From a virus: DNA of 20,355 nt. The position numbers and the translations under genes are program-made. The stretch spans positions 1 through 20,355 of IMG/VR virus record IMGVR_UViG_3300025162_000203, one strand, 5' to 3'. Below the pieces are notes generated by a model. It did no database searches, was not told the origin of the DNA, and saw only the letters and a list, made by a program, of their open reading frames with translations. The stretch's first letter is position 1, and each line of letters opens with the position of its first letter. Below, in pieces: positions 2,403 to 19,873 of this stretch.

Positions 2403-2411
2403 AATTATTAT

Positions 2412-3173: not shown

Positions 3174-3975
3174 AAAAATTGAAATCGTAGAAGAAAGTCC
3201 TAATCTAATTATTTCCACTTGGCAATCACTATACAATCAACCAAAAGAATATTTTGAACAATTTCAATATGTCATTGGTGATGAAGCACATCTTTTCAAA
3301 GCACAATCACTTACCACAATTCTCACATCATGCATTAATACCAAATATCGCATTGGTTTAACCGGTACGCTTGATGGAACAAAAACACATAAACTTGTAC
3401 TTGAAGGATTGTTTGGTCCTGTAAGGAAAGTCATTACAACGAAAGAATTGATTGACAAGAAAGAACTATCTGATTTTGAAATTAAGTGTTTAATATTAAA
3501 TTATGAACCTAGCATTTGTGAAGAAATGAAAGGTAAAACCTATCAAGAAGAAATAAACTACTTAATCACAAATGAACATAGAAACAAGTTTATTAAAAAC
3601 CTTGCGGTAAGTATGACCACTAATACTTTGGTTTTGTTCCAATTAGTTGACAAACACGGAAGAATACTGTATGATATGATAAGAGAAACAAAGAAAATAG
3701 GTGATCGTAAAGTTTTCTTTGTTCATGGCGGAACTGATACGGATGACCGTGAAGAAATTCGTAGAATTATGGAATTTTGTAAAGAAGATACTATTTTTTT
3801 AGATTTTGATGATTATGAAATAATGATAGATCCAAATGAACCTATAGATTTGGTTAATAAATTACAAAAAAAAGCTAAAGATATTACTGAAAATGATGAT
3901 ATTGACACCAGTATTCTTATAAATAAGATACAGACATCAATATTAAAAGGTTATGTATGGAAAAAGAAAGGTTAA
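3163..3975 (+). CDS. uvsW: UvsW helicase, middle fragment (motifs II-IV) with Hint-like tail
   Basis: This is the second UvsW piece. After a leader of about 15 residues (M-K-I-E-K-I-E-I-V-E) it resumes helicase sequence at L-I-I-S-T-W-Q-S-L-Y. It carries motif II I-G-D-E-A-H, motif III L-T-G-T-L-D-G-T, the conserved T-Y-Q-E-E-I segment, N-T-L-V-L-F-Q-L-V-D-K-H-G and V-F-F-V-H-G-G-T-D. Helicase similarity ends near residue 205 at R-R-I-M-E-F-C-K-E-D. The remaining 60-65 residues are not UvsW. They run I-F-L-D-F-D-D-Y-E-I-M-I and later A-K-D-I-T-E-N-D-D-I, a pattern that lines up with the tail of the first fragment. The fragment has its own ATG, overlaps the GIY-YIG gene by 11 nt, and overlaps the HNH gene by 19 nt. 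Its frame differs from that of the first fragment, so simple readthrough cannot rejoin them. Confidence 0.85.
   Translation: MKIEKIEIVEESPNLIISTWQSLYNQPKEYFEQFQYVIGDEAHLFKAQSLTTILTSCINTKYRIGLTGTLDGTKTHKLVLEGLFGPVRKVITTKELIDKKELSDFEIKCLILNYEPSICEEMKGKTYQEEINYLITNEHRNKFIKNLAVSMTTNTLVLFQLVDKHGRILYDMIRETKKIGDRKVFFVHGGTDTDDREEIRRIMEFCKEDTIFLDFDDYEIMIDPNEPIDLVNKLQKKAKDITENDDIDTSILINKIQTSILKGYVWKKKG
3918..3925 (+). promoter_or_regulatory. T4-type late promoter core upstream of the HNH gene
   Basis: An exact TATAAATA inside the tail of the UvsW middle fragment, ending 31 nt before the HNH endonuclease ATG. The spacing mirrors the motif at 2371-2378 before the first endonuclease. Confidence 0.5.
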
Positions 3976-4835
3976 TTCAAATATTCAGGTTAAAATTAGG
4001 CACACCTGACAATGAAGAAAAATTATTGGAATATATCAATTTTTGTTTAGATAAACACAATGATTATGAAGATTACCACGAAAAACACCACATATTACCT
4101 AGAGCTGTTTTTCCTGAGCATACAAAAGATGATTGGAACATATGCTGTTTATCTTACGAAAATCACGTTTTAGGTCATTTTTTGTTGGCAGAAGCGTATT
4201 TAAATAGAAAATTTTCTAGAACATTAAATTTTTTACAAAATAAAACAGAAGATGAAATTATAAAATTAAAAAAAATATTATCAGAAACTACCAAAAAATG
4301 GTGGAAAGATTTAACAGAAGAAGAATATGATGCTAGATGTTTAATGTATAGTGTAAGAATGAAAAAAATGATGCAGTCTGGTTCAGAATTTCATAAAAAA
4401 GTATGTGATGGTATAAATGAATATTATAAAAACAATCCACACAGAAAAGAAGAATTAAAAAAATTCTTTAAAGATTTATGGAAAAATAAAACAAAAGAAG
4501 AATATAACAAATGGTGTTCAAATATGAAATGGAATGAAGATAGAAGAACACACCACAAAAAATATATGGAAGAAAGATATCAAGATTCAAATTTTAAAGA
4601 ATCGTTTGATAAAAAAATGAAAGAAGTAAATAGTAATATTAATAAAAGAAAAGATGCTAGCGTTAAATTAAAAGAAAAATGGAAAGATCCAGATTTTATT
4701 GATAAGATGAATAAAAGAAAACCAGTAAGTTCAAATAGTTCAAAATTGAAAGAAAAATGGAAAGATCCTGTTTGGAAAGAATATATGTTAAATCAAAGAA
4801 AAATTAAAAGGAAGTTAAAAAATGAAACCAAATAA
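3957..4835 (+). CDS. HNH homing endonuclease inserted in uvsW
   Basis: This is a 292-residue protein. The HNH core is H-H-I-L-P-R (44-49), N61 in D-W-N-I-C-C-L-S, and H70 in Y-E-N-H-V-L-G-H, followed by F-L-L-A-E-A-Y. The rest is very basic and rich in Lys, Trp and Glu. It repeats K-L-K-E-K-W-K-D-P (coding copies near 4665 and 4744), which looks like duplicated DNA-binding helices. The gene sits between UvsW motif IV and motif V. It overlaps the middle fragment by 19 nt and the C-terminal fragment by 14 nt, so all pieces are translationally packed. It belongs to a different nuclease family from the first insertion, so the two insertions were independent. Confidence 0.85.
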   Translation: MEKERLIQIFRLKLGTPDNEEKLLEYINFCLDKHNDYEDYHEKHHILPRAVFPEHTKDDWNICCLSYENHVLGHFLLAEAYLNRKFSRTLNFLQNKTEDEIIKLKKILSETTKKWWKDLTEEEYDARCLMYSVRMKKMMQSGSEFHKKVCDGINEYYKNNPHRKEELKKFFKDLWKNKTKEEYNKWCSNMKWNEDRRTHHKKYMEERYQDSNFKESFDKKMKEVNSNINKRKDASVKLKEKWKDPDFIDKMNKRKPVSSNSSKLKEKWKDPVWKEYMLNQRKIKRKLKNETK

Positions 4836-5152
4836 AGTCAGTAAAGGGGGGAACGGAGCTATTATTGTGGCTTCGTTCGGTACATTTCTCCACTGGAGTT
4901 AACATCAGGAACTTGCATAACATTATATTTGCTTCTCCTTCAAAGTCAAGGGTGCGAAATCTTCAATCAATTGGACGAGGTCTTCGGCAATCTGAAGGAA
5001 AAAGCAAAGCAGTTCTTTATGATATAGCGGATGACATGCGACATAATAAATATATGAACTTTACACTAAAACATTTTACTGAAAGAGTAAAAATTTATAC
5101 TGAAGAGAAATTCCCATTCAAAATTTATAAAATAGGACTTAAAAATGGATAA
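4822..5152 (+). CDS. uvsW: UvsW helicase, C-terminal fragment (motifs V-VI) with an apparent +1 frameshift
   Basis: This is the third UvsW piece. The start chosen is ATG 4822, with AGGAAG about 8 nt upstream. From there the frame reads M-K-P-N-K-V-S-K-G-G-N-G and then A-I-I-V-A-S-F-G-T-F, matching T4 I-I-I-V-A-S-Y-G-V-F. In that frame it would stop at 4900-4902. The helicase sequence continues one base later as S-T-G-V-N-I-R-N-L-H-N (motif V) and Q-S-I-G-R-G-L-R-Q (motif VI), ending K-I-G-L-K-N-G. The switch falls at about 4876-4883 in ACATTTCTCC, where one extra base breaks the frame. It may be a sequencing error, a real mutation, or +1 slippage of tRNA-Phe from TTT to TTC. Without a shift, the main part would need a weak TTG start at 4865. 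The stop overlaps the next gene by 8 nt. Confidence 0.78.
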
Positions 5153-7422: not shown

Positions 7423-9146
7423 TAAAGTTTGAAAAAATATTTTGGAAGAATTTTCTTTCAACAGGTGCAGCATTTACAGAAATAGATTTTACAAGATCAC
7501 AAAACACACTTATTATTGGTAACAACGGTGCAGGTAAATCAACAATTCTTGATGCCTTGTGTTTTGGATTATTTGGTAAAGCATTTCGTAAGATCAATAA
7601 ACCGAATTTATTGAACAGTATTAACCAGTCTGACTGTATTGTTCAGGTTGAATTTTCTATTGGAAAAAAGAATTATAAGATAATTCGTGGTATTAAACCA
7701 AATATATTTGAAATTTACTGTAATGGTATACTTGTAAATCAAGATGCTAAAGTAATGGATTACCAAGAACATCTTGAAAAGTTTATTCTCAAATTAAATT
7801 ATAAATCATTTACACAAGTTGTTATTCTTGGGTCGGCCTCATTTGTACCTTTTATGCAACTGTCTGCTTCTGATCGTCGAGCCATTATTGAAGATTTATT
7901 AGATATTCAAATCTTTTCATCTATGAATAGTGTTGTAAAAGAAAAGATGTCGGCAATAAAAGATCAAACACAGAAAAACAAATATGCAATGGATTTGGCA
8001 TCTGAAAAAATAAAGATGCAAAAAGAATCTATTGAAGAACACAAGAAACACAACGAAGAAGAAATTGATAATAAACAAAAAGAAATCCATGCGTCTTTGA
8101 ATCAAACTATCAAGTTAAATAAAGACATTGTATTGATTCAAAAACACATAAATGTATTACAGAGTAACATTTCTGATAAATTATCCATAGAAAACAAAAG
8201 TTCAAAGTTAATTCAAATAGAATCTAAATTAGAAACACGTTTGAAAAAAATTGAAAAAGAGGAGAAGTTTTATGAAGAAAACGACAACTGCCCAACATGT
8301 AAACAAGGTATTGATGACACCTTTAGACATCAACAACTTAGCGGATGCAATAATACAAAAAGAGAAATTAGCCTTGCTATCACAGATATACAAAAACAAA
8401 TTGAAGAGACAAACAAACGTACAGGTGAAATCCAAAAAATAGTTAATAATATTCAAAGTCACAATAATGAAATTGTTAAAAACAATTCAACTATTTCAGC
8501 AATAAATTCTTACATTATAAAAGTTCAAAAAGAAATTAAAGTTTTATCTGATCGTAAAGAAACACTTGAAATTGAAAATAGTAACGCTAAGTTAAAAGAA
8601 TTACGTGAAGAATTAACCTCTCTCATTAAAGAACAAGAGATATTGTCTAGTGAAAAACAATATTATGAATTCGCAGCTTCATTATTAAAAGATGGTGGTA
8701 TTAAAACAAAGATCATCAAACAATACCTGCCAATCATGAATAAATTGATTAACAAATATCTCACAGCAATGGATTTCTTTGTAAATTTCAATATCAATGA
8801 AAATTTTGAAGAAACGATTAAGAGTAGACATCGTGATGAGTTTTCTTACGCTAATTTCTCCGAGGGAGAAAAACAAAAGATTGATATGGCTTTATTATTG
8901 ACATGGAGACAAATAGCCAAACTGAAGAATTCGACAAACACAAATCTATTAATTTTGGATGAAATATTTGATTCTAGTTTAGATACTGCTTCCGTTGAAT
9001 TATTGATGTCCTTATTAAAAGATTTATCTTCAGATACTAATGTTTTTGTTATTAGCCATAAATCTGATCAATTATTTGACCGTTTTCGTTCTGTAATTAA
9101 ATTTGTTAAAAAGAATAACTTTTCTGCAATTGAACATAAAGGATAA
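7419..9146 (+). CDS. 46: Recombination endonuclease subunit gp46 (Rad50-like SMC ATPase)
   Basis: This is a 575-residue SMC-type ATPase. Walker A G-N-N-G-A-G-K-S-T is at 34-42. It is followed by a long Lys/Glu-rich coiled coil, a zinc hook C-P-T-C (Cys291, Cys294), a returning coiled coil, the ABC signature F-S-E-G-E-K-Q near 480, Walker B L-L-I-L-D-E-I-F-D near 510-518, and an H-loop V-I-S-H-K near 547. With gp47 it forms the phage Mre11-Rad50-type complex that processes double-strand breaks. The ATG overlaps the gp47 stop. Length is close to T4 gp46 (560). AAGGA near its end serves as the ribosome-binding site of the next gene, 5 nt downstream. Confidence 0.95.
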   Translation: MIKFEKIFWKNFLSTGAAFTEIDFTRSQNTLIIGNNGAGKSTILDALCFGLFGKAFRKINKPNLLNSINQSDCIVQVEFSIGKKNYKIIRGIKPNIFEIYCNGILVNQDAKVMDYQEHLEKFILKLNYKSFTQVVILGSASFVPFMQLSASDRRAIIEDLLDIQIFSSMNSVVKEKMSAIKDQTQKNKYAMDLASEKIKMQKESIEEHKKHNEEEIDNKQKEIHASLNQTIKLNKDIVLIQKHINVLQSNISDKLSIENKSSKLIQIESKLETRLKKIEKEEKFYEENDNCPTCKQGIDDTFRHQQLSGCNNTKREISLAITDIQKQIEETNKRTGEIQKIVNNIQSHNNEIVKNNSTISAINSYIIKVQKEIKVLSDRKETLEIENSNAKLKELREELTSLIKEQEILSSEKQYYEFAASLLKDGGIKTKIIKQYLPIMNKLINKYLTAMDFFVNFNINENFEETIKSRHRDEFSYANFSEGEKQKIDMALLLTWRQIAKLKNSTNTNLLILDEIFDSSLDTASVELLMSLLKDLSSDTNVFVISHKSDQLFDRFRSVIKFVKKNNFSAIEHKG

Positions 9147-9151
9147 ACAAA

Positions 9152-9730
9152 ATGAGCGAAATAATTAAGTTTAATACAGAAGAACTGGCAAAAGTAAATG
9201 TAGTAAATGTACCAATACAAGTAAAAATATTTAATCTAGTTCCTGAGAATCATCCAATCTTAAAACAAGTATTACCTGAATTTGATTTTTTAAATGCACC
9301 CGTTAATCCAAATGAATTTGCATCATCACTTGTCGAGACTTGTAAAATAAACAAGGGTATTGGTCTATCTGCAAATCAATGTGGTTTTCCTTATCGTGTT
9401 TTTGTTATGGGTGCCAATGATGATTATGTGGCTTTCTTTAATCCTAAAATTATCAATAAATCAGATAACGAAATTCATATGTTGGAAGGATGTTTATCTT
9501 TTCCATTATTAGGTTTAAAGATAACAAGACCAGAAGAAATTCATGTTCAATATCAAGATTTTAATGGTATCACTCGTGAAACTAAATTTGTTGGGCTATC
9601 TGCTCGTTGTTTTCAGCATGAATTATCGCATTTAAATGGACTAACTATGCTGGACGAAACTAAACCGCTGGCACTAAAAACAGGTTTAAATAAACGTAAA
9701 AAAATGGCTAATCGTATTAAAATAAAATGA
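9152..9730 (+). CDS. def: Peptide deformylase
   Basis: This is a 192-residue zinc/iron hydrolase that removes the formyl group from nascent protein N-termini. All three family motifs are present: G-I-G-L-S-A-N-Q (69-76), E-G-C-L-S-F-P (112-118, metal-ligand Cys) and Q-H-E-L-S-H-L-N-G (155-163, H-E-x-x-H with two His ligands). Deformylases are frequent in marine T4-like phages. The gene has a good ribosome site (AAGGA) and opens a run of four overlapping genes: its TGA shares ATGA with the asparagine-synthetase-like gene. It has an N-terminal extension of about 25 residues before the first recognisable strand. A link to the modification genes downstream may be only transcriptional. Confidence 0.92.
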   Translation: MSEIIKFNTEELAKVNVVNVPIQVKIFNLVPENHPILKQVLPEFDFLNAPVNPNEFASSLVETCKINKGIGLSANQCGFPYRVFVMGANDDYVAFFNPKIINKSDNEIHMLEGCLSFPLLGLKITRPEEIHVQYQDFNGITRETKFVGLSARCFQHELSHLNGLTMLDETKPLALKTGLNKRKKMANRIKIK

Positions 9731-10521
9731 TCGATAAATTATTATGTGAAGTAATTGAGAAAGAAAGTGAAGGACATGATGAAGTAGCTATATTGCTTTC
9801 TGGTGGGGTTGACTCAATATCTTGTGCATTAGCAGCTCATCGTATAGGTAAAAAAGTAAACACATATACCTTTCATTTAAATGATCAAATTTCTTATGAT
9901 TCCGCTAAGGCAATTTCTGTATCTCATCAGATGGGCTGGAGATGCGTTGTAACTGATATCCTTACGGATGATATAGAAAATCATTTTAAAACGCTTAGAA
10001 GTGATTTTGAATGCACCAAAAAGACGCATTATGAATGTACTTACCCATTTCTTTACATTTATCCGCAGATTAAAGAAAAAGTAGTAATTTCGGGTGTAGC
10101 CGCTGATGGACATTATGGTGTTTCTAAAAAAGCGTGTATACATTTCAAACAACCAAAATCTTTGTTTGATGAATTTCGTCAGGATTATTTTTCAAATCTT
10201 AATCCAGCAGGCTATCAACAACAATTGTTATTATGTAAAAAATATGATAAAAAATTTATCGCACCGTATTTAAATTCAACCGTTGTTGATTTTTTTAGAC
10301 AATATGATTGGTTTGAATTAAACAAACCATATCAAAAACATCATGTTCGCTCGGCATTCACCGAATTTGAAGAACTTGGTAAAGTTAAACAACATATTAA
10401 CTTACAACTAGGTGCAGGGGTTGACAAAGCATTTGAAAGCCTGTTACAATCTAATGAGATTAATTTTAAAAATAGAAAACGTATGTTGGATGTTTATCGT
10501 GATTGGAATTTATATAAATGA
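9727..10521 (+). CDS. Asparagine-synthetase-like PP-loop ATPase without glutaminase domain
   Basis: This 264-residue protein corresponds to the C-terminal synthetase domain of AsnB-type enzymes. The pyrophosphate loop S-G-G-V-D-S is at 25-30. S-G-V-A-A-D-G-H-Y-G (122-131) matches the S-G-x-G-A-D-E-x-x-G-G-Y motif, with the usual Glu replaced by Gly. It ends with A-P-Y-L-N-S-T-V-V-D-F and L-Q-L-G-A-G-V-D-K-A-F. The family adenylates a carboxylate with ATP and lets an amine attack it. The N-terminal Cys-2 glutaminase domain is absent, so free ammonia or another amine would be the donor. It overlaps deformylase and the cytosine methyltransferase by 4 nt on each side (ATGA), so it is probably made in step with the methyltransferase. 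I infer that it may act on a DNA-borne carboxylate. Plain asparagine or other small-molecule synthesis is the alternative. Confidence 0.75.
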   Translation: MIDKLLCEVIEKESEGHDEVAILLSGGVDSISCALAAHRIGKKVNTYTFHLNDQISYDSAKAISVSHQMGWRCVVTDILTDDIENHFKTLRSDFECTKKTHYECTYPFLYIYPQIKEKVVISGVAADGHYGVSKKACIHFKQPKSLFDEFRQDYFSNLNPAGYQQQLLLCKKYDKKFIAPYLNSTVVDFFRQYDWFELNKPYQKHHVRSAFTEFEELGKVKQHINLQLGAGVDKAFESLLQSNEINFKNRKRMLDVYRDWNLYK

Positions 10522-11765
10522 TAATTGAAAAATATGAACCATATACTGTTGGAGATGTTAAATCTAGTTCTAACCGTAATTTATTTACTGTCATTTCTAC
10601 TTTTGCTGGTGGCGGTGGTTCTTCTACAGGTTATCGTTTGGCTGGTGGTAATGTTCTTGCCATAAATGAATTTGTTGATGAAGCAGTTAAAACATATTCT
10701 TTAAACTTTCCTGATACCAAAGTTATTCCTGGTGATATTAAGAAAATTACTGGCCAAGACTTTTTAAATATAACAGGTTTACAATCTGGTGAACTTGATA
10801 TATTTGATGGTTCACCACCATGTTCGGCATTCTCTGTTTCAGGTAAAAGAGAAAAGAATTGGAAAGGTGCTAAGAAAGATACTCGTGTTTCTTACTTTAA
10901 TGATGATGGTGATCTTGTCCATGAAGGAGAACTGATTGAAAAAACTGGCATTAAAAGTTATTCAGATAATCAAGTTGTAGAAGCAATTGAAGATTTGTTT
11001 TTTGAATTCATTCGTGTTGTTAAAGATATACAACCAAAAGTTATTATTGCCGAGAATGTTAAGGGCATCACAATGGGTGCGGCAAAAATTAAATTGTATG
11101 AATTTCAAAATTCATTTGAAGAATTAGGATATTATGTTACACATCACGTATTAAGTGCAGCAGACTACGGAGTTCCACAAGCAAGAGAAAGATTGTTCTT
11201 TGTTTGTGTAAGAAATGACGTAGCAGATGCGATTGGAATAAATGAAATGACATTGAATAGTCTTTCATATCCAAGATCAACTTCTAAACATATCGGACTA
11301 AGAACCGCAATTCAAGACATAATAAATGATCCTGAAGAAGAAAAGATGTTAGAAGATTTCGTAGAAGGTTCATTTCAGAAAAGATTTTTGAGTTTATTAC
11401 CTTTTAATCCTGAGAAACACACTAAACCATCCGATAAACAATTTACAGGCAAGAATGGACCGAATGAAAAAGGTTCTTGTTTTAATATGATTCGGCCAGC
11501 ACCACATCTTCCAAGTCCTACTCTGACACAACAAGGTCAACAGCGCGGTGTATCTGGTGTATTTCATTATGAAAAGAATCGTAAGTTTACAATTAAAGAA
11601 TTAAAACGTATCATGAGTTTGCCAGAAGACTTTCAATTGACTGGTACATTTGATCAACAAGCAGAACGTTGTGGTCGCATGGTTGCACCTAAGATGATGG
11701 CAGCCTTGGCAACGACAGTATATGAGAATATATTGAAACCGTATAAGGAGTTACAAAATGTCTAA
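10518..11765 (+). CDS. C5-cytosine DNA methyltransferase with Arg in motif X (predicted carboxymethyltransferase)
   Basis: This is a 415-residue Dcm-family enzyme. Motif I is F-A-G-G-G-G-S-S-T-G (29-38). Motif IV is G-S-P-P-C-S-A-F-S (98-106), with nucleophile Cys102. Motif VI is E-N-V (179-181) and motif VIII is Q-A-R-E-R-L-F (221-227). Motif IX is R-K-F-T-I-K-E-L-K-R-I-M-S-L-P-E-D-F (355-372). Motif X is C-G-R-M-V-A-P-K (385-392). The invariant motif X Asn (G-N-x-V-P) is Arg387. In engineered M.MpeI, mutation of this Asn to a basic residue enables use of carboxy-SAM. The CmoA-like gene starts inside this gene's last codons (8-nt overlap). All catalytic motifs are intact, so the enzyme should be active. 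The target sequence cannot be read from the variable region (about 230-350). Ordinary 5-methylation is the conservative alternative. Confidence 0.9.
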   Translation: MIIEKYEPYTVGDVKSSSNRNLFTVISTFAGGGGSSTGYRLAGGNVLAINEFVDEAVKTYSLNFPDTKVIPGDIKKITGQDFLNITGLQSGELDIFDGSPPCSAFSVSGKREKNWKGAKKDTRVSYFNDDGDLVHEGELIEKTGIKSYSDNQVVEAIEDLFFEFIRVVKDIQPKVIIAENVKGITMGAAKIKLYEFQNSFEELGYYVTHHVLSAADYGVPQARERLFFVCVRNDVADAIGINEMTLNSLSYPRSTSKHIGLRTAIQDIINDPEEEKMLEDFVEGSFQKRFLSLLPFNPEKHTKPSDKQFTGKNGPNEKGSCFNMIRPAPHLPSPTLTQQGQQRGVSGVFHYEKNRKFTIKELKRIMSLPEDFQLTGTFDQQAERCGRMVAPKMMAALATTVYENILKPYKELQNV

Positions 11766-12447
11766 ATTCACATTTGCTCAAAGAGAAGAAGGATTTGATA
11801 ATCACATTGAACAGAGTATTCGTGGTTATTCTAATCTAATGCAAGACGTATTAAAAATTTCAGAATACTTTGTTGAAGATAATAGTAATGTTGTTGATAT
11901 TGGTTGTTCAACTGGTAAGATGTTGAAAGCCATGATTAAACAAAACACTTTTGCACCAAAAGCAGATTATATTGGTATTGAAATTGAAGAAGATTTCTAT
12001 CGTGATTTTACAGAAGATGAAATTAAAAATAGCAATCTACATTATTATAGAGGTGATGTTCGTGACTTTGATTTTGGTACAAATAATTGTTCATTGATTA
12101 CGTCAATATTTACATTGCAGTTTATGCAAGAAGATCAACGTCAATCTGTAATTAAACAGATTTATCGTGGATTAAAGAAAGGTGGTGCCTTTATATTTTC
12201 AGAAAAAACAATTGCTGAGAATCCTAAGATTCAAGAGATTCGTACTTTTACTTATTACGATTATAAGAGACAGTTTTTTACGTCTGACGATATTCTTGAT
12301 AAAGAAAAGAAATTGCGTCATATGATGAAATTGAATAATAGAAATGAATTGGTTAGAATGTGTGCAACCGCTGGGTTTGAATTTCAATCCATTGATACGT
12401 TTTGGCAAAATCATGCATTCACTGGGTTTATTGCCATTAAAAACTAA
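11758..12447 (+). CDS. cmoA: CmoA-like carboxy-S-adenosylmethionine synthase
   Basis: This is a 229-residue class I SAM-binding protein that lines up with E. coli CmoA (247 aa) along most of its length. Matching segments: E-Q-S-I-R-G-Y-S-N (CmoA R-S-V-P-G-Y-S-N), V-V-D-I-G-C-S-T-G (45-53), F-T-L-Q-F (118-122), I-Y-R-G-L-K-K-G-G-A-F-I-F-S-E-K (135-150), D-Y-K-R (168-171), and a C-terminal A-G-F ... F-W-Q ... F-I-A-I-K. CmoA converts SAM plus prephenate to carboxy-SAM, normally for tRNA wobble uridine modification with CmoB. No CmoB is seen here; the partner is instead a DNA cytosine methyltransferase whose stop codon it overlaps. CmoA Arg199, which binds the carboxylate, aligns by eye to the Lys184/Lys185 pair, with one gap. 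A generic methyltransferase is the alternative. Confidence 0.82.
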   Translation: MSKFTFAQREEGFDNHIEQSIRGYSNLMQDVLKISEYFVEDNSNVVDIGCSTGKMLKAMIKQNTFAPKADYIGIEIEEDFYRDFTEDEIKNSNLHYYRGDVRDFDFGTNNCSLITSIFTLQFMQEDQRQSVIKQIYRGLKKGGAFIFSEKTIAENPKIQEIRTFTYYDYKRQFFTSDDILDKEKKLRHMMKLNNRNELVRMCATAGFEFQSIDTFWQNHAFTGFIAIKN

Positions 12448-12455
12448 TGGCAATA
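12429..12455 (+). repeat. Strong hairpin over the stop codon of the CmoA-like gene
   Basis: TATTGCCATTA (12429-12439) is the exact reverse complement of TAATGGCAATA (12445-12455), with the loop AAAAC. The gene's TAA stop is the first part of the right arm. No T-run follows, so it is not a standard terminator. It may protect the 3' end of the modification-operon mRNA. Confidence 0.6.
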
Positions 12456-12458
12456 GTG

Positions 12459-12481
12459 AAGTATATGTCTGAAATATACTT
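12459..12481 (+). repeat. Inverted repeat abutting the -35 box of the next promoter
   Basis: AAGTATAT (12459-12466) and ATATACTT (12474-12481) are perfect inverted arms around a 7-nt centre. The right arm overlaps the first two bases of the TTGACA box. Position and symmetry suit an operator, possibly for the winged-helix protein encoded just downstream; this is inferred. Confidence 0.4.
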
Positions 12482-12508
12482 GACATATGCACTATATAAT
12501 GTTATTAT
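12480..12508 (+). promoter_or_regulatory. Sigma70-type promoter of the winged-helix gene
   Basis: A perfect TTGACA (12480-12485), a 17-nt spacer and TATTAT (12503-12508). An exact TATAAT lies at 12495-12500 but is only 9 nt from the -35 box. The start site would fall near 12515, leaving a leader of about 45 nt that contains a small hairpin (CTCGT/ACGAG). Confidence 0.75.
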
Positions 12509-12559
12509 GATTGAACTCGTAATGAAACGAGGAAATTTAACTATGAAAAAGGAATTAAA

Positions 12560-12832
12560 ATGACTAAATTATCCGCAAAACAAAAAATGTTGAACACTCT
12601 TCAAAAAACTGAAGGCTACAACACTTTTACTGTAGAACAAGCACGCCGTCGTTTTGGTGTACAGAACGTTTCAGCCCGTATTGAAGAACTTCGTAAAGAA
12701 GGTCACTGTATCTACACTAATACAAAAACTCTGGAAAATGGTAGTAAAGTTAATTATTACCGTATGGGTAAGCCATCCCGTGAAATGATTAAAACTGCTG
12801 CATTATTTGCTAGTGACACTTTTTACGCTTAA
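12560..12832 (+). CDS. Small winged-helix/HTH DNA-binding protein
   Basis: This is a 90-residue protein. After a helix (K-Q-K-M-L-N-T-L-Q-K) it reads F-T-V-E-Q-A-R-R-R-F-G-V-Q-N-V-S-A-R-I-E-E-L-R-K-E-G, a clear helix-turn-helix. A beta wing follows (C-I-Y-T-N-T-K-T-L, V-N-Y-Y-R-M-G). Proteins of this kind are common and abundant in marine T4-like phages, where they are annotated simply as helix-turn-helix proteins. It has a private consensus promoter, a good ribosome site (AAGGAATTAAA before ATG) and a private terminator, so it is an independent and probably strongly expressed early unit. A palindrome at the promoter suggests self-regulation, which is unproven. Codon use is richer in C-ending codons than its neighbours, consistent with high expression. 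Confidence 0.8.
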   Translation: MTKLSAKQKMLNTLQKTEGYNTFTVEQARRRFGVQNVSARIEELRKEGHCIYTNTKTLENGSKVNYYRMGKPSREMIKTAALFASDTFYA

Positions 12833-12846
12833 TTAGTTTTAAACTT

Positions 12847-12873
12847 ATGGGAGAATGAATCTCCCATTTTTTT
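12847..12873 (+). terminator. Rho-independent terminator after the winged-helix gene
   Basis: ATGGGAGA (12847-12854) and TCTCCCAT (12860-12867) pair perfectly around a 5-nt loop and run into seven T residues (12867-12873). Confidence 0.92.
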
Positions 12874-12893
12874 ATTTTATAATCGGATAGCAA

Positions 12894-13712
12894 ATGGAAA
12901 TTTCAATTAAAACAGAAGACTTAAAAACCAAAAGCATTTTTTGTGCTACACCTATGTACGGTGGTATGAATCACGGTCTTTACATGAAATCATGTTTAGA
13001 TTTGCAAGGTATGTGTATACAGTACGGCATTCAAATCAAATTCTCTTTTCTATTCAATGAATCATTGATTACCCGTGCAAGAAATTATCTTGTTGATGAG
13101 TTCCTACATCGTTCAGATTGTACTCATCTACTATTTTTGGATTCTGATATTTCTTTTAATCCACAAGATGTTATCGCAATGTTGGCCCTTGATAAAGATG
13201 TAATCGGTGCGCCATATCCAAAGAAAGCAATTAAATGGCGTTCAGTTGCTAAAGCACTAGAAAAGAATCCTGGTATTGATCATAGTATGCTTGAGAAAGT
13301 TGCTGGTGATTTTGTCTTTAATCCAGTAAAAGGTACAGCAGAGTTCAATGTATCCGAACCATTATCTGTGCTAGAGATTGGTACTGGTTTCATGATGGTT
13401 AAGCGTGAAGTGTTCACCAAAATGGCAGATCAGTATCCAACAATTCGTTATAAGCCAGATCATGTTGGTCAAGCCAACTTCGATGGTTCACGTTATATTC
13501 ATGCCTTCTTTGATACTGTTATCGATACCAAAGACTCAATCACTGGTGGTGGCTCTGATCGTTACTTGTCGGAAGATTATATGTTCTGTCAGATGTGGCG
13601 TAAAATGGGTGGTGAAATTTTCTTGTGTCCATGGATGAGAACTGCTCATATTGGTACGTATCATTTCCAAGGTGATATGCCAGCCGTGGCAAATTTTGTG
13701 GGTGAAATGTAA
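12894..13712 (+). CDS. Glycosyltransferase-like protein (GT-A fold)
   Basis: This is a 272-residue protein. It begins I-F-C-A-T-P-M-Y-G-G-M, followed by S-L-I-T-R-A-R-N-Y-L-V and then H-L-L-F-L-D-S-D-I-S-F, where D-S-D is the expected metal- and sugar-nucleotide-binding D-x-D motif. V-I-G-A-P-Y-P-K-K and G-T-G-F-M-M-V-K-R follow, then a late S-E-D-Y-M-F-C and H-I-G-T-Y-H-F. This order is typical of GT-A glycosyltransferases common in marine T4-like phages. The acceptor is unknown; surface glycan or glycosylation of modified DNA bases are both possible, and nothing here decides. It lies downstream of a terminator. I see no strong promoter or ribosome site before it beyond a GGATAG segment. Confidence 0.75.
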   Translation: MEISIKTEDLKTKSIFCATPMYGGMNHGLYMKSCLDLQGMCIQYGIQIKFSFLFNESLITRARNYLVDEFLHRSDCTHLLFLDSDISFNPQDVIAMLALDKDVIGAPYPKKAIKWRSVAKALEKNPGIDHSMLEKVAGDFVFNPVKGTAEFNVSEPLSVLEIGTGFMMVKREVFTKMADQYPTIRYKPDHVGQANFDGSRYIHAFFDTVIDTKDSITGGGSDRYLSEDYMFCQMWRKMGGEIFLCPWMRTAHIGTYHFQGDMPAVANFVGEM

Positions 13713-13734
13713 AACACTCGTATGGAGATTGTAG

Positions 13735-14403
13735 ATGGCAATAATCGGGTTAGTTGGCTTCATTGGTTCTGGTAAAGGAACTGCTGGAGACATTCTAAGT
13801 GAATTTGGTTTCATTAAAGAGAGTTTTGCTGGGTCAGTTAAAGATATTGCCTCCGTTATGTTTGGCTGGCCTAGGCATCTACTTGAAGGTGATACTGATG
13901 TATCTAGAAGTTTTCGTGAATGGCCAGACCATGACTGGTCATTAAAGTTCAATCGACCGTTCACACCAAGAGAAGCATTACAGAAAATTGGAACAGAGGT
14001 CGGCCGTGATGTATTTCACGAAGACTTTTGGGTTCAAGTATTAGACGCTAAAGTTAACATGGAAAAAAACTATGTTATTACCGATGTTCGTTTTCCAAAT
14101 GAAATTAAATGGATACATGACAATGATGGTCTCGTAATCGAAATACAACGTGGTGAAAATCCATATTGGTATTCTTCTTTATCAGATATAAAAACACCAG
14201 GCCTAAGAAAATTATACATGAATGATTTTAATATTCATGAATCTGAATGGGCATGGGTTGGTAATGAAATTGATTATCGTATTGATAATAATACATCTAA
14301 AGAAGGATTAAAAAATGGCTTGGTCGCTATATTGACAACAAGATTAGATAAGAGTACAATAAGTACACTACATAATGGAGAATTAAATGAAATTATCAAA
14401 TGA
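13735..14403 (+). CDS. 1: Deoxynucleoside monophosphate kinase (gp1-like)
   Basis: This is a 222-residue P-loop kinase. The N-terminus reads A-I-I-G-L-V-G-F-I-G-S-G-K-G-T (Walker A), then F-A-G-S-V-K-D-I-A, then R-E-A-L-Q-K-I-G-T-E-V-G-R, W-V and V-I-T-D-V-R-F-P-N-E. This matches the order in T4 gp1, which phosphorylates dNMPs for the phage precursor pathway (L-A-G-P-I-K-D, L-M-Q-A-L-G-T-D, Y-I-V-P-D-T-R). GGAG lies 7 nt before the ATG. The gene overlaps gp45 by 17 nt. If cytosine modification occurs after replication, as predicted here, this kinase need not handle a modified nucleotide. Confidence 0.8.
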   Translation: MAIIGLVGFIGSGKGTAGDILSEFGFIKESFAGSVKDIASVMFGWPRHLLEGDTDVSRSFREWPDHDWSLKFNRPFTPREALQKIGTEVGRDVFHEDFWVQVLDAKVNMEKNYVITDVRFPNEIKWIHDNDGLVIEIQRGENPYWYSSLSDIKTPGLRKLYMNDFNIHESEWAWVGNEIDYRIDNNTSKEGLKNGLVAILTTRLDKSTISTLHNGELNEIIK

Positions 14404-15058
14404 TACCCTAGCGGTACTTAAAAACTTTTCAGAAATTAATGATGGTATTCAATTTAAGAAAGGTAAGATCCTCAGAACTATTTCACCTGGTAAATCAGTA
14501 ATGGCTCAAGCTATTATTGCTGATGATATTCCAGATGAGTTTTGTGTGAATGATTTAAATAAATTTCTTGCAGTCAATTCTTTAGCAAAAGATACAGAAA
14601 TTAAATTTACTGATAAACAAATATATTTTACAGTAAATAATCGCACTACAAAGATTACAAAAGGTGAATTGCGGGCAATTGTTGTTCCACCTGAAAAAAA
14701 CATTATTATTGATAAGCCAGATTGTATATTTAAAATGTCGAAAGATGATTTTGATAGTACAATTAAACTTGCTGGTATTCTTTCTTCACCAAACATTTCA
14801 ATTGAATCTGATGGGGATGACATTAGTATTGTTACCGCTGATATAAAAGAAAGTTCTTCTGATAAAAACTATACTAAAGTAGCAAAAGGTAACGGTAAAA
14901 AGTTTAATATTATTTTTAGAAAAGAAAATATTAAAATGATTTCTGGTAGTTATGAAGTGATCATATCATTTAAAGGTTTTGTTCACTTTAAAAATGAAAA
15001 TGGTCTGATTGATTATTGGGTTGCATTTGAAGCCAAAGATTCAAATATTGGAGATTAA
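14387..15058 (+). CDS. 45: Sliding clamp gp45
   Basis: This is a 223-residue DNA polymerase processivity clamp; T4 gp45 has 228 residues. The start M-K-L-S-N-D-T-L-A-V-L-K-N-F-S-E-I-N matches T4 M-K-L-S-K-D-T-T-A-L-L-K-N-F. The C-terminus Y-W-V-A-F-E-A-K-D-S parallels Y-V-V-A-L-E-A-D-S. It forms a trimeric ring and also activates late transcription through gp55. GGAG is placed 7-8 nt before the ATG, inside the kinase gene. The clamp-loader genes gp44 and gp62 follow after three small genes. In T4 this mRNA is a RegA target, and regA is present downstream. Confidence 0.93.
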   Translation: MKLSNDTLAVLKNFSEINDGIQFKKGKILRTISPGKSVMAQAIIADDIPDEFCVNDLNKFLAVNSLAKDTEIKFTDKQIYFTVNNRTTKITKGELRAIVVPPEKNIIIDKPDCIFKMSKDDFDSTIKLAGILSSPNISIESDGDDISIVTADIKESSSDKNYTKVAKGNGKKFNIIFRKENIKMISGSYEVIISFKGFVHFKNENGLIDYWVAFEAKDSNIGD

Positions 15059-15059
15059 T

Positions 15060-15254
15060 ATGTTATTGCTTTTTACAGAGTTTCAAACAGGTAATTCTAT
15101 TGCTGTAAATCCATCAAATGTTGTTTGTGTATTTACTGGTAAAGATCCAAAGACTGAAATTGAAACAACATTTATTAACATGACTAATGGTAATCTTGTT
15201 GTTGAAGAAGATTATCTTGACGTAGTTGGTCGAATCAATGGTTCACTACAATGA
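15060..15254 (+). CDS. Small conserved protein after gp45 (64 aa)
   Basis: The true start is probably ATG 15060, with GGAG at 15050-15053; a longer frame from 15009 would run inside gp45. The protein reads M-L-L-L-F-T-E-F-Q-T-G-N-S, then V-V-C-V-F-T-G, and ends V-V-G-R-I-N-G-S-L-Q. The strand-rich pattern suggests a compact beta protein. Small genes of this type lie between gp45 and gp44 in marine T4-like phages. It overlaps the next gene by 4 nt (ATGA). Function unknown. Confidence 0.65.
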   Translation: MLLLFTEFQTGNSIAVNPSNVVCVFTGKDPKTEIETTFINMTNGNLVVEEDYLDVVGRINGSLQ

Positions 15255-15466
15255 AAACTGAAGAAGAACAATTGGAATTTTCTCGTAGACAAAAAGAGAT
15301 TGCTCAAATACATTCTGATTTAGTTTCAAATATTGGTACACCTACTACAGACGAACACGTTCAGTTGATTAAAACTTCTGAAAGTGTTATGATTAAAAAC
15401 ATGCAGGATCTTGTATATGCTTACATTGGTTCTGATTTTCACCAAATAATGAAGGAAAAAGAATGA
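15251..15466 (+). CDS. Small helical protein of unknown function (71 aa)
   Basis: The 71-residue frame overlaps both neighbours by 4 nt (ATGA at each end), which supports real translation. It looks almost entirely helical: E-E-E-Q-L-E-F-S-R-R-Q-K-E-I-A at the start, then V-Q-L-I-K-T-S-E-S-V-M-I-K-N-M. No motif is recognised. Its place between clamp and clamp-loader genes suggests a replication or transcription accessory role, without further evidence. Confidence 0.6.
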   Translation: MKTEEEQLEFSRRQKEIAQIHSDLVSNIGTPTTDEHVQLIKTSESVMIKNMQDLVYAYIGSDFHQIMKEKE

Positions 15467-15735
15467 CAGTTCAAACATTGTTTGGAACATTTACAGACGA
15501 ACAGTTAAAAACACTCAAGGGTGCAATTGATGAAATTGTAACTGTTATGTATAAAATGGATGCTAATAAAACCGAATTAAAAGATATTATGGATAGTACA
15601 TTTGATACATTGAAGATTCCTAAAAAGATTCTTAGAAAAATGGCAAGAGTTCAATATAAACAATCTTTCCAAGAAGAAGTAACAGAATCAAAAGAATTTG
15701 AAACATTATTTGAAGGTATGACAGAAGTTAAGTGA
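15463..15735 (+). CDS. Small helical protein, possibly DsbA-like (90 aa)
   Basis: This 90-residue protein contains E-L-K-D-I-M-D-S-T-F-D-T-L, then I-P-K-K-I-L-R-K-M-A-R-V-Q-Y-K-Q-S, and a C-terminal acidic segment E-F-E-T-L-F-E-G-M. The order of a helix, a basic K-K-I-L-R-K-M patch and an acidic tail resembles T4 DsbA, a small double-stranded DNA-binding regulator of late transcription (T4 has L-I-K-D-I, then M-F-N-R-L-L-A-L-Y-H-K). The similarity is short, so DsbA is a suggestion only. It overlaps the preceding gene by 4 nt. Confidence 0.55.
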   Translation: MTVQTLFGTFTDEQLKTLKGAIDEIVTVMYKMDANKTELKDIMDSTFDTLKIPKKILRKMARVQYKQSFQEEVTESKEFETLFEGMTEVK

Positions 15736-15762
15736 TGAAGTATTATATTATGGAGAATTTGA

Positions 15763-16701
15763 ATGAATGCACTAGAACACACCCTTTGGGTCGAGAAGTA
15801 TCGACCAACTAAAGTAGAAGATTGTATTTTACCTGATGCGATAAAGTCTACTTTTCAAGAGTACGTCAACCGTAAAGAAATCCCTAACCTTTTACTATCT
15901 GGTTCGGCAGGTGTAGGTAAAACTACAATTGCCAAAGCCTTGTGTATTGAAGTTGATGCTGATTATATGGTCGTAAATGGATCATCTGATCGTGGTATTA
16001 ATGAAATCAAACAAATTGTTAAAAACTTTTCTTCAACAGTAAGTTTTACTGGTGGTCGCAAAGTGATCATAATTGATGAGGCTGACAATCTAACAAATGA
16101 TGCACAATTAGCATTAAGAGCCTCAATAGAAGAAGTTTCTATTAATTGTTCTTTTATCTTTACTTGTAATTTCAAAAATCGTATCCAAGAACCAATTCAT
16201 TCACGTTGTTCTGTTATCGAATTTAAAATTAACGGATCAAAAGCGAAAATGGCAACACAGTTTTTCAAACGTGTTGAATGGATATTAGAACAAGAAAATG
16301 TTAAATATGATAAAGAAGTCGTAGCTGCTGTTATCACAAAACACTTTCCCGATAATCGTAGAATTCTTAATGAACTTCAACGATATTCTGTATCTGGTGT
16401 AATTGATAAAGGTATTCTATCTAATATTTCTGATATTCAATTAAATACACTAATTACTTCTTTGAAAGAAAAAGATTTTTCCGCCGCACGTAAATGGGTT
16501 TCTAATAATCTTGATAATGATACTTCAATTTTATTCAGAAAAATATATGATTCGATGTATGGACATATGAAACCTAATTCTATTCCACAGTTAGTTTTTA
16601 TTTTAGCAAAATACCAATATCAAAATGCTTTTTGTTCCGATAGAGAAATTAATTTTATGGCCTGTCTAGTTGAATTAATGGTAGATGTTGAATGGAAATA
16701 A
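15763..16701 (+). CDS. 44: Clamp loader large subunit gp44 (AAA+ ATPase)
   Basis: This is a 312-residue AAA+ ATPase that opens and loads the gp45 clamp with gp62. It carries W-V-E-K-Y-R-P (9-15), Walker A G-S-A-G-V-G-K-T-T (47-55), Walker B I-I-I-D-E-A-D (102-108), sensor I T-C-N (134-136) and the arginine-finger motif S-R-C (147-149). Length is close to T4 gp44 (319). GGAG stands about 8 nt before the ATG. About 84 nt separate it from gp62; that gap holds only stop-interrupted frames. Confidence 0.95.
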   Translation: MNALEHTLWVEKYRPTKVEDCILPDAIKSTFQEYVNRKEIPNLLLSGSAGVGKTTIAKALCIEVDADYMVVNGSSDRGINEIKQIVKNFSSTVSFTGGRKVIIIDEADNLTNDAQLALRASIEEVSINCSFIFTCNFKNRIQEPIHSRCSVIEFKINGSKAKMATQFFKRVEWILEQENVKYDKEVVAAVITKHFPDNRRILNELQRYSVSGVIDKGILSNISDIQLNTLITSLKEKDFSAARKWVSNNLDNDTSILFRKIYDSMYGHMKPNSIPQLVFILAKYQYQNAFCSDREINFMACLVELMVDVEWK

Positions 16702-16785
16702 TAAAATATCAGCAGAAGAAATTTGAAAAAAATAAAATTTACAAATATTAACATGGAAAGAAAGTCGTGAAAAGTGGAGTAAATA

Positions 16786-17163
16786 ATGGCTGACCTTTTT
16801 AAAGAAATTATTCCTTCAATTCTTACAACAAAGAAGAACGTATTACAAACTGAAGAAGACATAAAGAAATATCCTCCTTTTATTGTTAATCGTGCCTTGT
16901 CTAATCATATGGATTGCGTGTTGTACGCCAATGAAATGAATTTATATCATGAGTTGGATAACGATATGCAATATTCTTATTTTCTAAATAGTATTAGACC
17001 TATGAATCGTAAGTTTCAAACTTGGAACACGAACAATGTCGATGAAACCATTCAGTACATAAAAAAATATTTTGGTTATACAAACGAAAAAGCAAAAGAT
17101 GTATTGGGTATCCTTAGTGATAAACAAATCGCTGAAATAAAAGAAAAAATAAAAGCGGGGTGA
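16786..17163 (+). CDS. 62: Clamp loader small subunit gp62
   Basis: This is a 125-residue protein between gp44 and regA, the exact T4 order. It has P-P-F-I-V-N-R-A-L-S-N-H-M-D, a conserved stretch of phage gp62 proteins, then Y-F-L-N-S-I-R-P-M-N-R-K. It is shorter than T4 gp62 (187), as is usual in marine T4-like phages. It has no ATPase motif, as expected for the subunit that bridges the gp44 ring. GGAG precedes the ATG by 7-8 nt. Confidence 0.88.
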   Translation: MADLFKEIIPSILTTKKNVLQTEEDIKKYPPFIVNRALSNHMDCVLYANEMNLYHELDNDMQYSYFLNSIRPMNRKFQTWNTNNVDETIQYIKKYFGYTNEKAKDVLGILSDKQIAEIKEKIKAG

Positions 17164-17168
17164 TAGGC

Positions 17169-17588
17169 ATGATATCAATAGAAGACTTAGTTGAAGTTAC
17201 TTTAAATGAAAGAGATGATTTTTTAAAAGTTCGTGAAACACTTACACGTATTGGTGTAGCTTCAAAAAAAGATAAAACACTTTTTCAAAGCTGTCACATC
17301 TTACACAAACAAGGTAAATATTACATCGTTCACTTTAAAGAACTATTTGCTCTTGATGGTAAACCTGCTGATATTACTGATAATGATCTCTCCAGACGTA
17401 ACGCAATTGCCAAACTTTTACAAGATTGGGAATTGGTAAATGTTGTTTGCTTAGAACAGATAGAAACACCAACACCAATATATCTTTCACAGATAAAAAT
17501 CTTATCTCATAAAGAGAAACAAGAATGGCAACTGACTCCTAAGTACAATATAGGTTCTTCTAAGAAAAAATATATCTCATTGTTGTAA
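17169..17588 (+). CDS. regA: Translational repressor RegA
   Basis: This protein binds the ribosome-binding regions of early mRNAs and blocks their translation. It matches T4 RegA closely: D-D-F-L-K-V-R-E-T-L-T-R-I-G, F-Q-S-C-H-I-L-H-K-Q-G, Y-Y-I-V-H-F-K-E-L, R-R-N-A-I-A-K-L-L-Q-D-W-E-L and W-Q-L-T-P-K-Y-N-I-G. ATG 17169 is preferred, with GGGG 8 nt upstream. A GTG at 17160 overlapping the gp62 stop would add three residues. It is about 139 residues against 122 in T4, with a Lys-rich C-terminal extension. Known T4 targets include the genes for gp44 and gp45, both just upstream here. Confidence 0.93.
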   Translation: MISIEDLVEVTLNERDDFLKVRETLTRIGVASKKDKTLFQSCHILHKQGKYYIVHFKELFALDGKPADITDNDLSRRNAIAKLLQDWELVNVVCLEQIETPTPIYLSQIKILSHKEKQEWQLTPKYNIGSSKKKYISLL

Positions 17589-17614
17589 TAAAACAACAAA
17601 AAAAGTTTAAAATG

Positions 17615-17648
17615 GGTGAAATTAAAACTTCACCCTTGTTTTTTTTAT
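17615..17648 (+). terminator. Rho-independent terminator after regA
   Basis: GGGTGAA (17615-17621) and TTCACCC (17630-17636) pair around an 8-nt loop and are followed by TTG and a long T-run (from 17640). It closes the gp45-gp44-gp62-regA block. Confidence 0.88.
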
Positions 17649-17664
17649 ATATATGATGTATAAT
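17638..17664 (+). promoter_or_regulatory. Weak candidate promoter for the small genes downstream
   Basis: TTGTTT (17638-17643) and TATAAT (17659-17664) with a 15-nt spacer, followed directly by a second TATAAT (17665-17670). The -35 box is poor and overlaps the terminator T-run. The position just after a terminator and before a new gene supports a promoter somewhere here, but the region is almost all A and T. Confidence 0.35.
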
Positions 17665-17695
17665 TATAATATAAAATCTTTTTTTCGAGAATATT

Positions 17696-17884
17696 ATGAA
17701 AATTGTCAAAAATACAAAACTAACGTTAATGCGAAATAAATTCAACCAGGATTTATTATATACTTCCTCAGAATGGCCAGAAAGAGAAATTGATGGTATT
17801 AAATTTGTCTCTGTCAAAGTTAGACAAAATGATTCTTATCTTAAACTTATGCGTAAAGATCAACTTGAAAGGGTGAAGCAATGA
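17696..17884 (+). CDS. Small protein of unknown function (62 aa)
   Basis: The 62-residue frame begins M-K-I-V-K-N-T-K-L-T-L-M-R-N-K-F and contains S-S-E-W-P-E-R-E-I-D-G-I-K-F-V-S-V. It is basic, with no recognised motif. Codon use matches its neighbours and the stop overlaps the next start by 4 nt, which supports translation. A TCGAGA element lies 11-16 nt before the ATG, but no clear ribosome site. Confidence 0.55.
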   Translation: MKIVKNTKLTLMRNKFNQDLLYTSSEWPEREIDGIKFVSVKVRQNDSYLKLMRKDQLERVKQ

Positions 17885-18081
17885 GTAAACTTGATGAAGC
17901 AGTAAGACAACGCAAATATTTTGATGTTAAAAGCAAAATAGATTTAAACATTTTTAAACATTTTGTTATTCATAGTGCTTGGGGAAAAGAATGTTGTCCA
18001 TTTCTTTTAGAAGAACCATTTTTGAATATTCCAGATATGATTCATTATAAAATTACCAATGAATTTTTAAGAATTGAATAA
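17881..18081 (+). CDS. Small conserved phage protein (66 aa)
   Basis: This 66-residue protein carries W-G-K-E-C-C-P-F-L-L-E-E-P-F-L-N-I-P-D-M-I. The C-P-F-x-L-E-x-P-x-L-x-I-P-x-M-I signature is one I recognise from small uncharacterised proteins of marine T4-like phages. The paired Cys residues are notable. The ATG overlaps the previous stop (ATGA) and AAGGGTG supplies a ribosome site. Function unknown. Confidence 0.6.
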   Translation: MSKLDEAVRQRKYFDVKSKIDLNIFKHFVIHSAWGKECCPFLLEEPFLNIPDMIHYKITNEFLRIE

Positions 18082-18087
18082 AAATAT

Positions 18088-18169
18088 ACGGGAGTATCTC
18101 ATTCGGCTTCTACCCGAACGTTAATCGAGTAATTGGAGTATGCAGGTTCAAGTCCTGTCTCCCGTGCCA
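18088..18169 (+). tRNA. Odd tRNA-like gene, possibly tRNA-Arg(TCT) lacking a D arm
   Basis: Canonical parts: a perfect 7-bp acceptor (ACGGGAG 18088-18094 with CTCCCGT), a T arm GCAGG-TTCAAGT-CCTGT, discriminator G18166 and encoded CCA (18167-18169). The middle is not canonical. A perfect anticodon-type arm, TTCGG-CTTCTAC-CCGAA (18102-18118), gives anticodon TCT with T33 and A37. It starts only seven bases after the acceptor, leaving no room for a D arm, and about 23 nt separate it from the T arm. An alternative stem around ACGTTAA (anticodon GTT, Asn) keeps more usual spacing but has a mismatch and C at position 33, and its D stem does not pair. AGA is a common codon in this AT-rich genome, which favours Arg. 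It could be a functional unusual tRNA or a decayed one. Confidence 0.55.
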
Positions 18170-18217
18170 TTCTATTAAAAAGAATGAAATAGAAGATATT
18201 AGGAAAGGTTGTTTTGT

Positions 18218-18290
18218 GGACCTCTAGTTTAATGGTAAAACAACAAACTCATAATTTGTCAGAGTGCTGGTTCGACTCCAGCGGGGTCCA
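18218..18290 (+). tRNA. tRNA-Met (anticodon CAT)
   Basis: A full cloverleaf: acceptor GGACCTC with GGGGTCC (one G-T pair), D arm GTTT-AATGGTAA-AAAC, anticodon arm ACAAA-CTCATAA-TTTGT, variable loop CAGAGT, T arm GCTGG-TTCGACT-CCAGC and discriminator A. CCA is not encoded (CAA follows). The CAT anticodon could also be a lysidine-modified tRNA-Ile; Met is the default. Confidence 0.9.
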
Positions 18291-18307
18291 CAAAATAATT
18301 TTCTTTC

Positions 18308-18335
18308 ATTGGTTCAAATCCAATTGGGCCCACCA
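18308..18335 (+). pseudogene. 3' remnant of another tRNA
   Basis: ATTGG-TTCAAAT-CCAAT forms a standard T arm, followed by a 7-nt acceptor strand TGGGCCC, discriminator A and encoded CCA (18333-18335). No matching 5' half (GGGCCCA) lies upstream; the complete tRNA-Met ends only 17 nt before. It is therefore a truncated tRNA, left by deletion or by insertion of mobile DNA. The endonuclease remnant right after it is suggestive. Confidence 0.65.
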
Positions 18336-18345
18336 AAACAACTTT

Positions 18346-18480
18346 AGTCAAAAATACGAGTGTGGAGCTAAATGGATAACTAATGGAACACTTTCTAAAA
18401 CTATTAAACCTCACGAACAAATGCCAGAAGGATATTATTATGGAAGAGTTTGCTCCAGAAAAGAAAAAAAAATACATTGA
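18346..18480 (+). pseudogene. Remnant of a homing endonuclease C-terminus
   Basis: One frame reads G-A-K-W-I-T-N-G-T-L-S-K-T-I-K-P and then M-P-E-G-Y-Y-Y-G-R before a TGA at 18478-18480. This is the W-x-x-N-G ... P-x-G-(W/Y)-x-x-G pattern at the C-terminus of many phage GIY-YIG and HNH homing endonucleases; compare the end of the GIY-YIG gene in uvsW. No nuclease domain or start codon precedes it, because the frame runs back into tRNA sequence. Its last 41 bases overlap the start of the dCMP deaminase gene in another frame. Confidence 0.55.
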
Positions 18481-18904
18481 CTTTTATATGAACGTTGCAG
18501 AAAATGTTGCAAATATGTCATATGCAAAAAGATTAAAAGTTGGTAGTGTTTTAGTTAAAGATGGAAATATTATTAGTTTTGGGTGGAATGGTATGCCTTC
18601 TGGTTGGGATAATAATTGTGAAGATGATTATCTTGATGAGAGGCATCATATAACCTTAAAAACTAAACCAGAAGTGATTCATTCCGAAATGAATTGTTTG
18701 ATGAAAGTAACTAAATCAAACAATTCATCCAAAGATGCAGTTATGTTTTTAACCCATTCTCCATGTATGGACTGTGCTAAACAGATATTTACTGCTGGTA
18801 TAAATAAAGTATACTATCGTGAACACTATCGTTCTACCGATGGAATCGATTTTCTAAAAAAATGTAACATAGAGGTAGAACAATGTCTTGGGGATATCAC
18901 CTAG
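18440..18904 (+). CDS. cd: Deoxycytidylate (dCMP) deaminase
   Basis: This enzyme converts dCMP to dUMP for thymidylate synthesis. ATG 18440 is chosen because AAGGA lies 7-8 nt upstream and it gives a natural N-terminus (M-E-E-F-A-P-E-K); an upstream in-frame ATG at 18383 lies in endonuclease remnant sequence. Zinc-site motifs are H-S-E (in V-I-H-S-E-M-N-C) and S-P-C-M-D-C. Further family features are R-L-K-V-G-S-V-L-V-K-D and G-W-N-G-M-P-S-G. It is about 154 residues, a little shorter than T4 Cd (193). It overlaps the SpeD-like gene by 22 nt. With the dNMP kinase it belongs to the nucleotide-precursor set. Confidence 0.9.
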   Translation: MEEFAPEKKKKYIDFYMNVAENVANMSYAKRLKVGSVLVKDGNIISFGWNGMPSGWDNNCEDDYLDERHHITLKTKPEVIHSEMNCLMKVTKSNNSSKDAVMFLTHSPCMDCAKQIFTAGINKVYYREHYRSTDGIDFLKKCNIEVEQCLGDIT

Positions 18905-19236: not shown

Positions 19237-19278
19237 CTAAATATTCTTGTAAACCGTTGTAAATACGCAACAAGTCAC

Positions 19279-19345: not shown

Positions 19346-19347
19346 AA

Positions 19348-19854: not shown

Positions 19855-19860
19855 AAATTG

Positions 19861-19868: not shown

Positions 19869-19873
19869 AGAAT

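Follow-up and report, generated by a model that had tools for sequence, protein, structure and literature searches.

Natural 5-carboxymethylcytosine (5cxmC) was described in one paper recovered by full-text search (Yang et al., Nat Commun 2025, December; PMC12783734). In Synechococcus phage S-B43, CmoA makes carboxy-SAM (Cx-SAM), CmoX carboxymethylates cytosine in the GC motif to give 5cxmC, and CmoY ligates glycine to the 5cxmC carboxylate; 5gcxmC is present in S-B43 DNA (PMC12783734). The wild-type CmoX (SpCmoX) accepted carboxy-SAM only, and PDB entry 8YF3 represents SpCmoX with carboxy-SAM (PMC12783734). The residues named at its carboxy-SAM site are Phe25, Glu47, Phe48, Asp69, Cys98 and Arg350, of which Arg350 contacts the carboxymethyl group (PMC12783734). 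In addition, ligase clusters with differing active-site residues were described, the largest grouping at ~30% identity around SpCmoY (PMC12783734). In Escherichia coli CmoA, a salt bridge from Arg199 binds the carboxylate of carboxy-SAM (PMC3663124), and the S-B43 enzyme (SpCmoA) is more active than that of E. coli (PMC12783734). The original prediction for the DNA considered here left open whether a natural example of 5cxmC was known; one had already been reported (Yang et al. 2025, PMC12783734), and the present locus is not a first.

The window, that is, the whole stretch of DNA that was analysed, is a 20,355-base virus record carrying T4-like genes for tail tube, UvsY, UvsW, a late sigma factor, a metallophosphatase (gp47-like), a sliding clamp and clamp loaders. 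Among 50,697 phage records, hardly any close DNA match to positions 9000-20355 was found. A C5-cytosine methyltransferase overlapping a CmoA-like ORF by 8 nt had been predicted, and both ORFs are present and match these families. The predicted two-gene extent (10518-12447) thus covers both genes; however, the adjacent CmoY at 9727-10521 had been missed. The gene order is cmoY-cmoX-cmoA, the cassette starts at 9727, and upstream of it lie gp47/gp46-like genes and then a deformylase:

9152..9730, + strand: peptide deformylase (PF01327, E 6.5e-35), directly upstream of cmoY
9727..10521, + strand: 264-aa CmoY-like amide ligase, ATP-dependent (AMP-forming), consisting of the synthetase domain and lacking a glutaminase domain
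10518..11765, + strand: CmoX, predicted DNA cytosine C5-carboxymethyltransferase, 415 aa; SPPC with Cys102, and Arg387 equivalent to SpCmoX Arg350
11758..12447, + strand: CmoA, 229 aa, predicted carboxy-SAM synthase of the phage type, in which Glu183/Arg187 replace E. coli Arg199/Glu203

According to the ORF coordinates, cmoX and cmoA overlap by 8 nt, cmoY overlaps the start of cmoX by 4 nt, and the deformylase gene overlaps cmoY by 4 nt. We assign the deformylase no part in the modification. In cmoY-less loci such as L032, a deformylase-like ORF, recognized from its sequence and not by a profile match, also precedes CmoX.

We consider it very probable that the three genes constitute a cmoY-cmoX-cmoA DNA hypermodification cassette that makes 5cxmC within a pathway of the S-B43 type. 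The pathway is strongly supported, since each of the three genes has its homologue in the biochemically characterised cassette and CmoX retains the arginine that reads the carboxylate. This reading draws on homology, the order of the genes, the residues of the active sites and co-occurrence, each enzymatic step having been shown in S-B43 (PMC12783734); for the window phage we infer the chemistry, which amine is joined, the motif that is modified and the protection from restriction. CmoA would convert SAM and host prephenate to carboxy-SAM. CmoX would then flip out a cytosine, Cys102 would attack C6, and the carboxymethyl group, selected by Arg387, would be moved onto C5 to yield 5cxmC, which CmoY would turn into an amide with an amine predicted from homology. 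The genome so modified would be expected to resist host restriction. The phage had been predicted to make its own carboxy-SAM and to write 5cxmC as its mark. The pathway is borne out by the S-B43 homology and Arg387; however, because CmoY lies beside CmoX, 5cxmC is probably an intermediate, and the final base is likely an amide such as 5-glycylcarboxymethylcytosine. The latter would still carry the negative charge that had been predicted for the mark.

The CmoY-like protein matches the Pfam Asn_synthase family (PF00733, E 4.6e-10), has the PP-loop motif SGGVDS at residues 25-30, and is 50.0% identical over 98% to the S-B43 'putative asparagine synthase', which is SpCmoY. Its AlphaFold model (pLDDT 93) has beta-lactam synthetase, carbapenam synthetase and asparagine synthetase as the nearest PDB folds, and several charged positions hardly vary among the CmoY proteins compared. 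Glycine as the amine is suggested by the overall similarity to SpCmoY, and we hold it less firmly than the formation of 5cxmC. S-adenosylmethionine decarboxylase is a polyamine-pathway enzyme, and a gene for it occurs at 18883-19236. This gene, the identity of just 50% to SpCmoY, and the existence of ligase clusters with different active-site residues (PMC12783734) would fit a CmoY that joins another amine to 5cxmC, such as a different amino acid, ammonia or a polyamine, so that the final base would be unlike that of S-B43. We regard this as unlikely, though worth keeping in mind. The window CmoY probably belongs to the largest ligase cluster, as this extends to ~30% identity around SpCmoY; the absence of a glutaminase domain argues against ammonia from glutamine, and the decarboxylase gene lies more than 6 kb away.

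The second protein of the cassette, CmoX, matches Pfam DNA_methylase (PF00145, E 2.7e-54) and NCBIfam dcm (E 2e-46), and its closest solved structure, far ahead of the others, is 8yf3 (E 6.3e-107). It has the C5-methyltransferase fold with SPPC at residues 99-102, Cys102 aligning with SpCmoX Cys98, and is 48.5% identical to S-B43 CmoX. All of the carboxy-SAM-site residues of SpCmoX are kept, as Phe29, Glu51, Phe52, Asp73, Cys102 and Arg387, respectively. At the position of Arg350, 101 of the 103 alignment rows have Arg; both rows with Leu are the protein of Methylophilales phage Melnitz, in whose complete genome no CmoA match was found. The HhaI-like methylase of Melnitz is presumably a plain methyltransferase, and the phage provides a natural negative control, in which the arginine and the cofactor synthase are missing together. 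An ordinary 5mC methyltransferase identity for the window CmoX was rejected on the grounds of Arg387 and the linked cmoA.

In the maximum likelihood tree of CmoX, the S-B43 enzyme falls in a clade of 12 rows (support 100/99), and the window CmoX lies outside it, in a part of the tree that is only moderately resolved (88/81). The stretch after SPPC is ~40 residues long in many members of the window CmoX's group, the window included, and at most 21 residues in the others. Both features speak against the favoured reading. Since the window CmoX is outside the assayed S-B43 clade, its DNA motif may differ from GC. Two CmoX genes occur in ten loci (L139, L140, L145, L146, L147 and L155-L159 (tandem)), and in L155 and L159 one CmoX is inside the S-B43 clade and one outside; the paired proteins of such loci may target different motifs. 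The clade position of the window CmoX, the long stretch after SPPC and the two-CmoX loci were not found in the main text of PMC12783734. Given the clade split and the two-CmoX loci, the GC motif is not to be assumed for the window enzyme. That the window cassette and its relatives form a second, uncharacterised branch of cytosine carboxymethyltransferases with a DNA target unlike that of the S-B43 branch, that phages with one CmoX of each branch modify two motifs, and that the CmoY here may attach another amine is a tentative extension, which we would put at rather less than an even chance. Depletion of the GC motif was also considered as a possible trace of specificity; the GC dinucleotide is only slightly under-represented (rho 0.91, in a window of 31% GC), which is uninformative.

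Adjoining methyltransferase and CmoA-like genes, which the original prediction proposed to look for in phage genomes, do occur together. CmoX is near CmoA in 78 of the 80 viral-contig loci found with CmoA, the exceptions (L008 and L045) being cut by contig ends, and CmoA is present in 74/80 loci found with CmoX; the two sets share some contigs, and the counts are not independent. CmoY is in the cluster in 38/80 of the CmoA-found and 67/80 of the CmoX-found loci. Neither CmoY nor any other Asn_synthase-family gene was found elsewhere in Synechococcus phage S-CRM01, in RN05-S or in five IMG/VR records (the longest of 143,934 bases), all of which carry CmoX and CmoA. CmoY is therefore optional in the cassette, and complete genomes with CmoX and CmoA and no ligase, which were not found in the main text of PMC12783734, may keep plain 5cxmC. 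The CmoA proteins of RN05-S (L005) and S-B43 (L002) are 99% identical and their CmoX proteins 90% identical, with no CmoY between the two genes in RN05-S. Thus, the two phages offer a natural comparison of 5cxmC without and with the glycine step. Meanwhile, the order X-Y-A occurs in L044, L097 and similar loci, so the cassette order is shuffled and the linkage kept. Two loci were recovered when bacterial genomes were scanned with the CmoA alignment. The first (L162, PAAV01000009.1), labelled as a Chloroflexi MAG, has a CmoA of the phage type (49% identity) next to phage-like genes and is probably a mis-binned phage contig; the second, in a Pelagibacteraceae genome, is a gene that resembles CmoA distantly.

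CmoA normally partners CmoB on tRNA, PHROGs names the family tRNA methyltransferase, and two tRNA genes are located at 18088-18290 of the window. These points could be taken to mean that CmoX is an ordinary 5mC enzyme and that carboxy-SAM from CmoA serves tRNA modification of the phage or host. However, Arg387 stands at the carboxylate-reading position, which is Leu in the CmoA-less Melnitz homologue, cmoX and cmoA overlap by 8 nt, and CmoX and CmoA co-occur very strongly. In addition, wild-type SpCmoX took carboxy-SAM only (PMC12783734), and no CmoB-family match was found among the window proteins searched. A tRNA role in place of DNA carboxymethylation is therefore highly improbable.

The original prediction matched 11758-12447 to CmoA, and the profile search agrees: the best NCBIfam match is TIGR00740 (E 2.9e-28), and the first family other than CmoA follows at E 2.4e-11. 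E. coli CmoA also heads the structure comparisons, with 4gek (2.8e-23) for sequence and 4iwn (TM 0.85; AlphaFold model pLDDT 91.4) for fold. The score of 99 bits is below the curated TIGR00740 cut-off of 193 bits, which makes the protein a divergent member, and identity to S-B43 CmoA is 48.9%. The cofactor residues Tyr39, Asp62, Gly64 and Ser66 are invariant in the alignment. Of the 93 aligned rows, 89 have Glu at position 199, among them the window (Glu183) and SpCmoA, and 89 have Arg at position 203, a helical turn further along (Arg187 in the window); by these counts, the remaining four rows have Arg199 and Glu203, as in E. coli. Judging from the alignment, Arg203 may take over the role of Arg199 in phage CmoA. 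The exchanged Arg199/Glu203 pair, seen in nearly all these phage CmoAs, was not found in the main text of PMC12783734. Loss of the carboxylate-binding pocket had been named as an observation that would speak against the prediction, and the Glu at position 199 looks like half of it; however, it does not refute the prediction, because SpCmoA, which was assayed, likewise has Glu there and outperforms E. coli CmoA. Loss of function from the missing Arg199 was rejected on the same ground. That the 229-aa protein is instead a CmoA paralogue that no longer makes carboxy-SAM, such as a plain SAM methyltransferase, would fit Glu183 and the 99 bits against a cut-off of 193, yet it is scarcely credible given the same Glu in the biochemically active SpCmoA, counts (89 Glu199, 89 Arg203) consistent with Arg a helical turn further along in every row with Glu at 199, and the invariant Tyr39, Asp62, Gly64 and Ser66.

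Other genes on the contig were also inspected. Just downstream of the cassette, 12894-13712 encodes a weak Anp1 glycosyltransferase-like protein (phrog_1574); ORFs like it are also near CmoX/CmoA in L032 and L143, and a role in modification is a mere candidate. The S-adenosylmethionine decarboxylase gene adjoins a dCMP/dCTP-deaminase-like gene (18383-18904). The uvsW gene is broken within 1626-5152:

1626-2375, 3163-3975 and 4865-5152: uvsW helicase in three ORFs
2412-3173: GIY-YIG-like ORF splitting uvsW, assigned by eye, no profile match
3957-4835: HNH homing endonuclease splitting uvsW

No group I or other Rfam intron matched in the broken uvsW, and one sub-threshold antisense-RNA Rfam match in this region was dismissed as chance. 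By eye, the end of the first uvsW piece resembles the N-terminal part of an intein, so uvsW may have been fractured, with split inteins in its pieces.

Compared with known systems, the tRNA wobble modification by E. coli CmoA/CmoB shares a CmoA homologue of the same fold (TM 0.85) and ~29% identity; in contrast, the acceptor enzyme there is CmoB and here a DNA C5-methyltransferase homologue, and Arg199/Glu203 are exchanged here. Engineered M.MpeI N374K, cited in PMC12783734, resembles CmoX in its positive residue at the carboxylate-reading position and in its product, 5cxmC, whereas it is engineered and CG-preferring and has no CmoA or CmoY of its own. The Melnitz HhaI-like methylase is 42% identical to the window CmoX and has SPPC, but carries Leu at the Arg387 position. 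S-CRM01 and RN05-S have adjoining CmoA and CmoX with the conserved residues, and differ in being complete genomes without CmoY or any Asn_synthase-family gene. The closest likeness is to S-B43: the same three clustered genes (48.5-50% identity over 96-98% of length), SPPC, the carboxylate-binding Arg, the CmoA Glu/Arg pair, and a CmoY without glutaminase domain. However, the order is A-Y-X in S-B43 and Y-X-A in the window, CmoX of the window exceeds its S-B43 counterpart by 43 aa and branches outside the S-B43 clade, and the window cassette follows gp47/gp46-like genes and a deformylase. The window cassette is clearly a further example of the published system and not a new one. Coming from a T4-like environmental phage with a CmoX outside the assayed clade, it independently supports 5cxmC as a natural, widespread phage base, and it adds testable details: the Arg-to-Leu control in Melnitz, the complete genomes with CmoX and CmoA but no ligase, the Arg/Glu exchange in CmoA, and the genomes with two CmoX genes.
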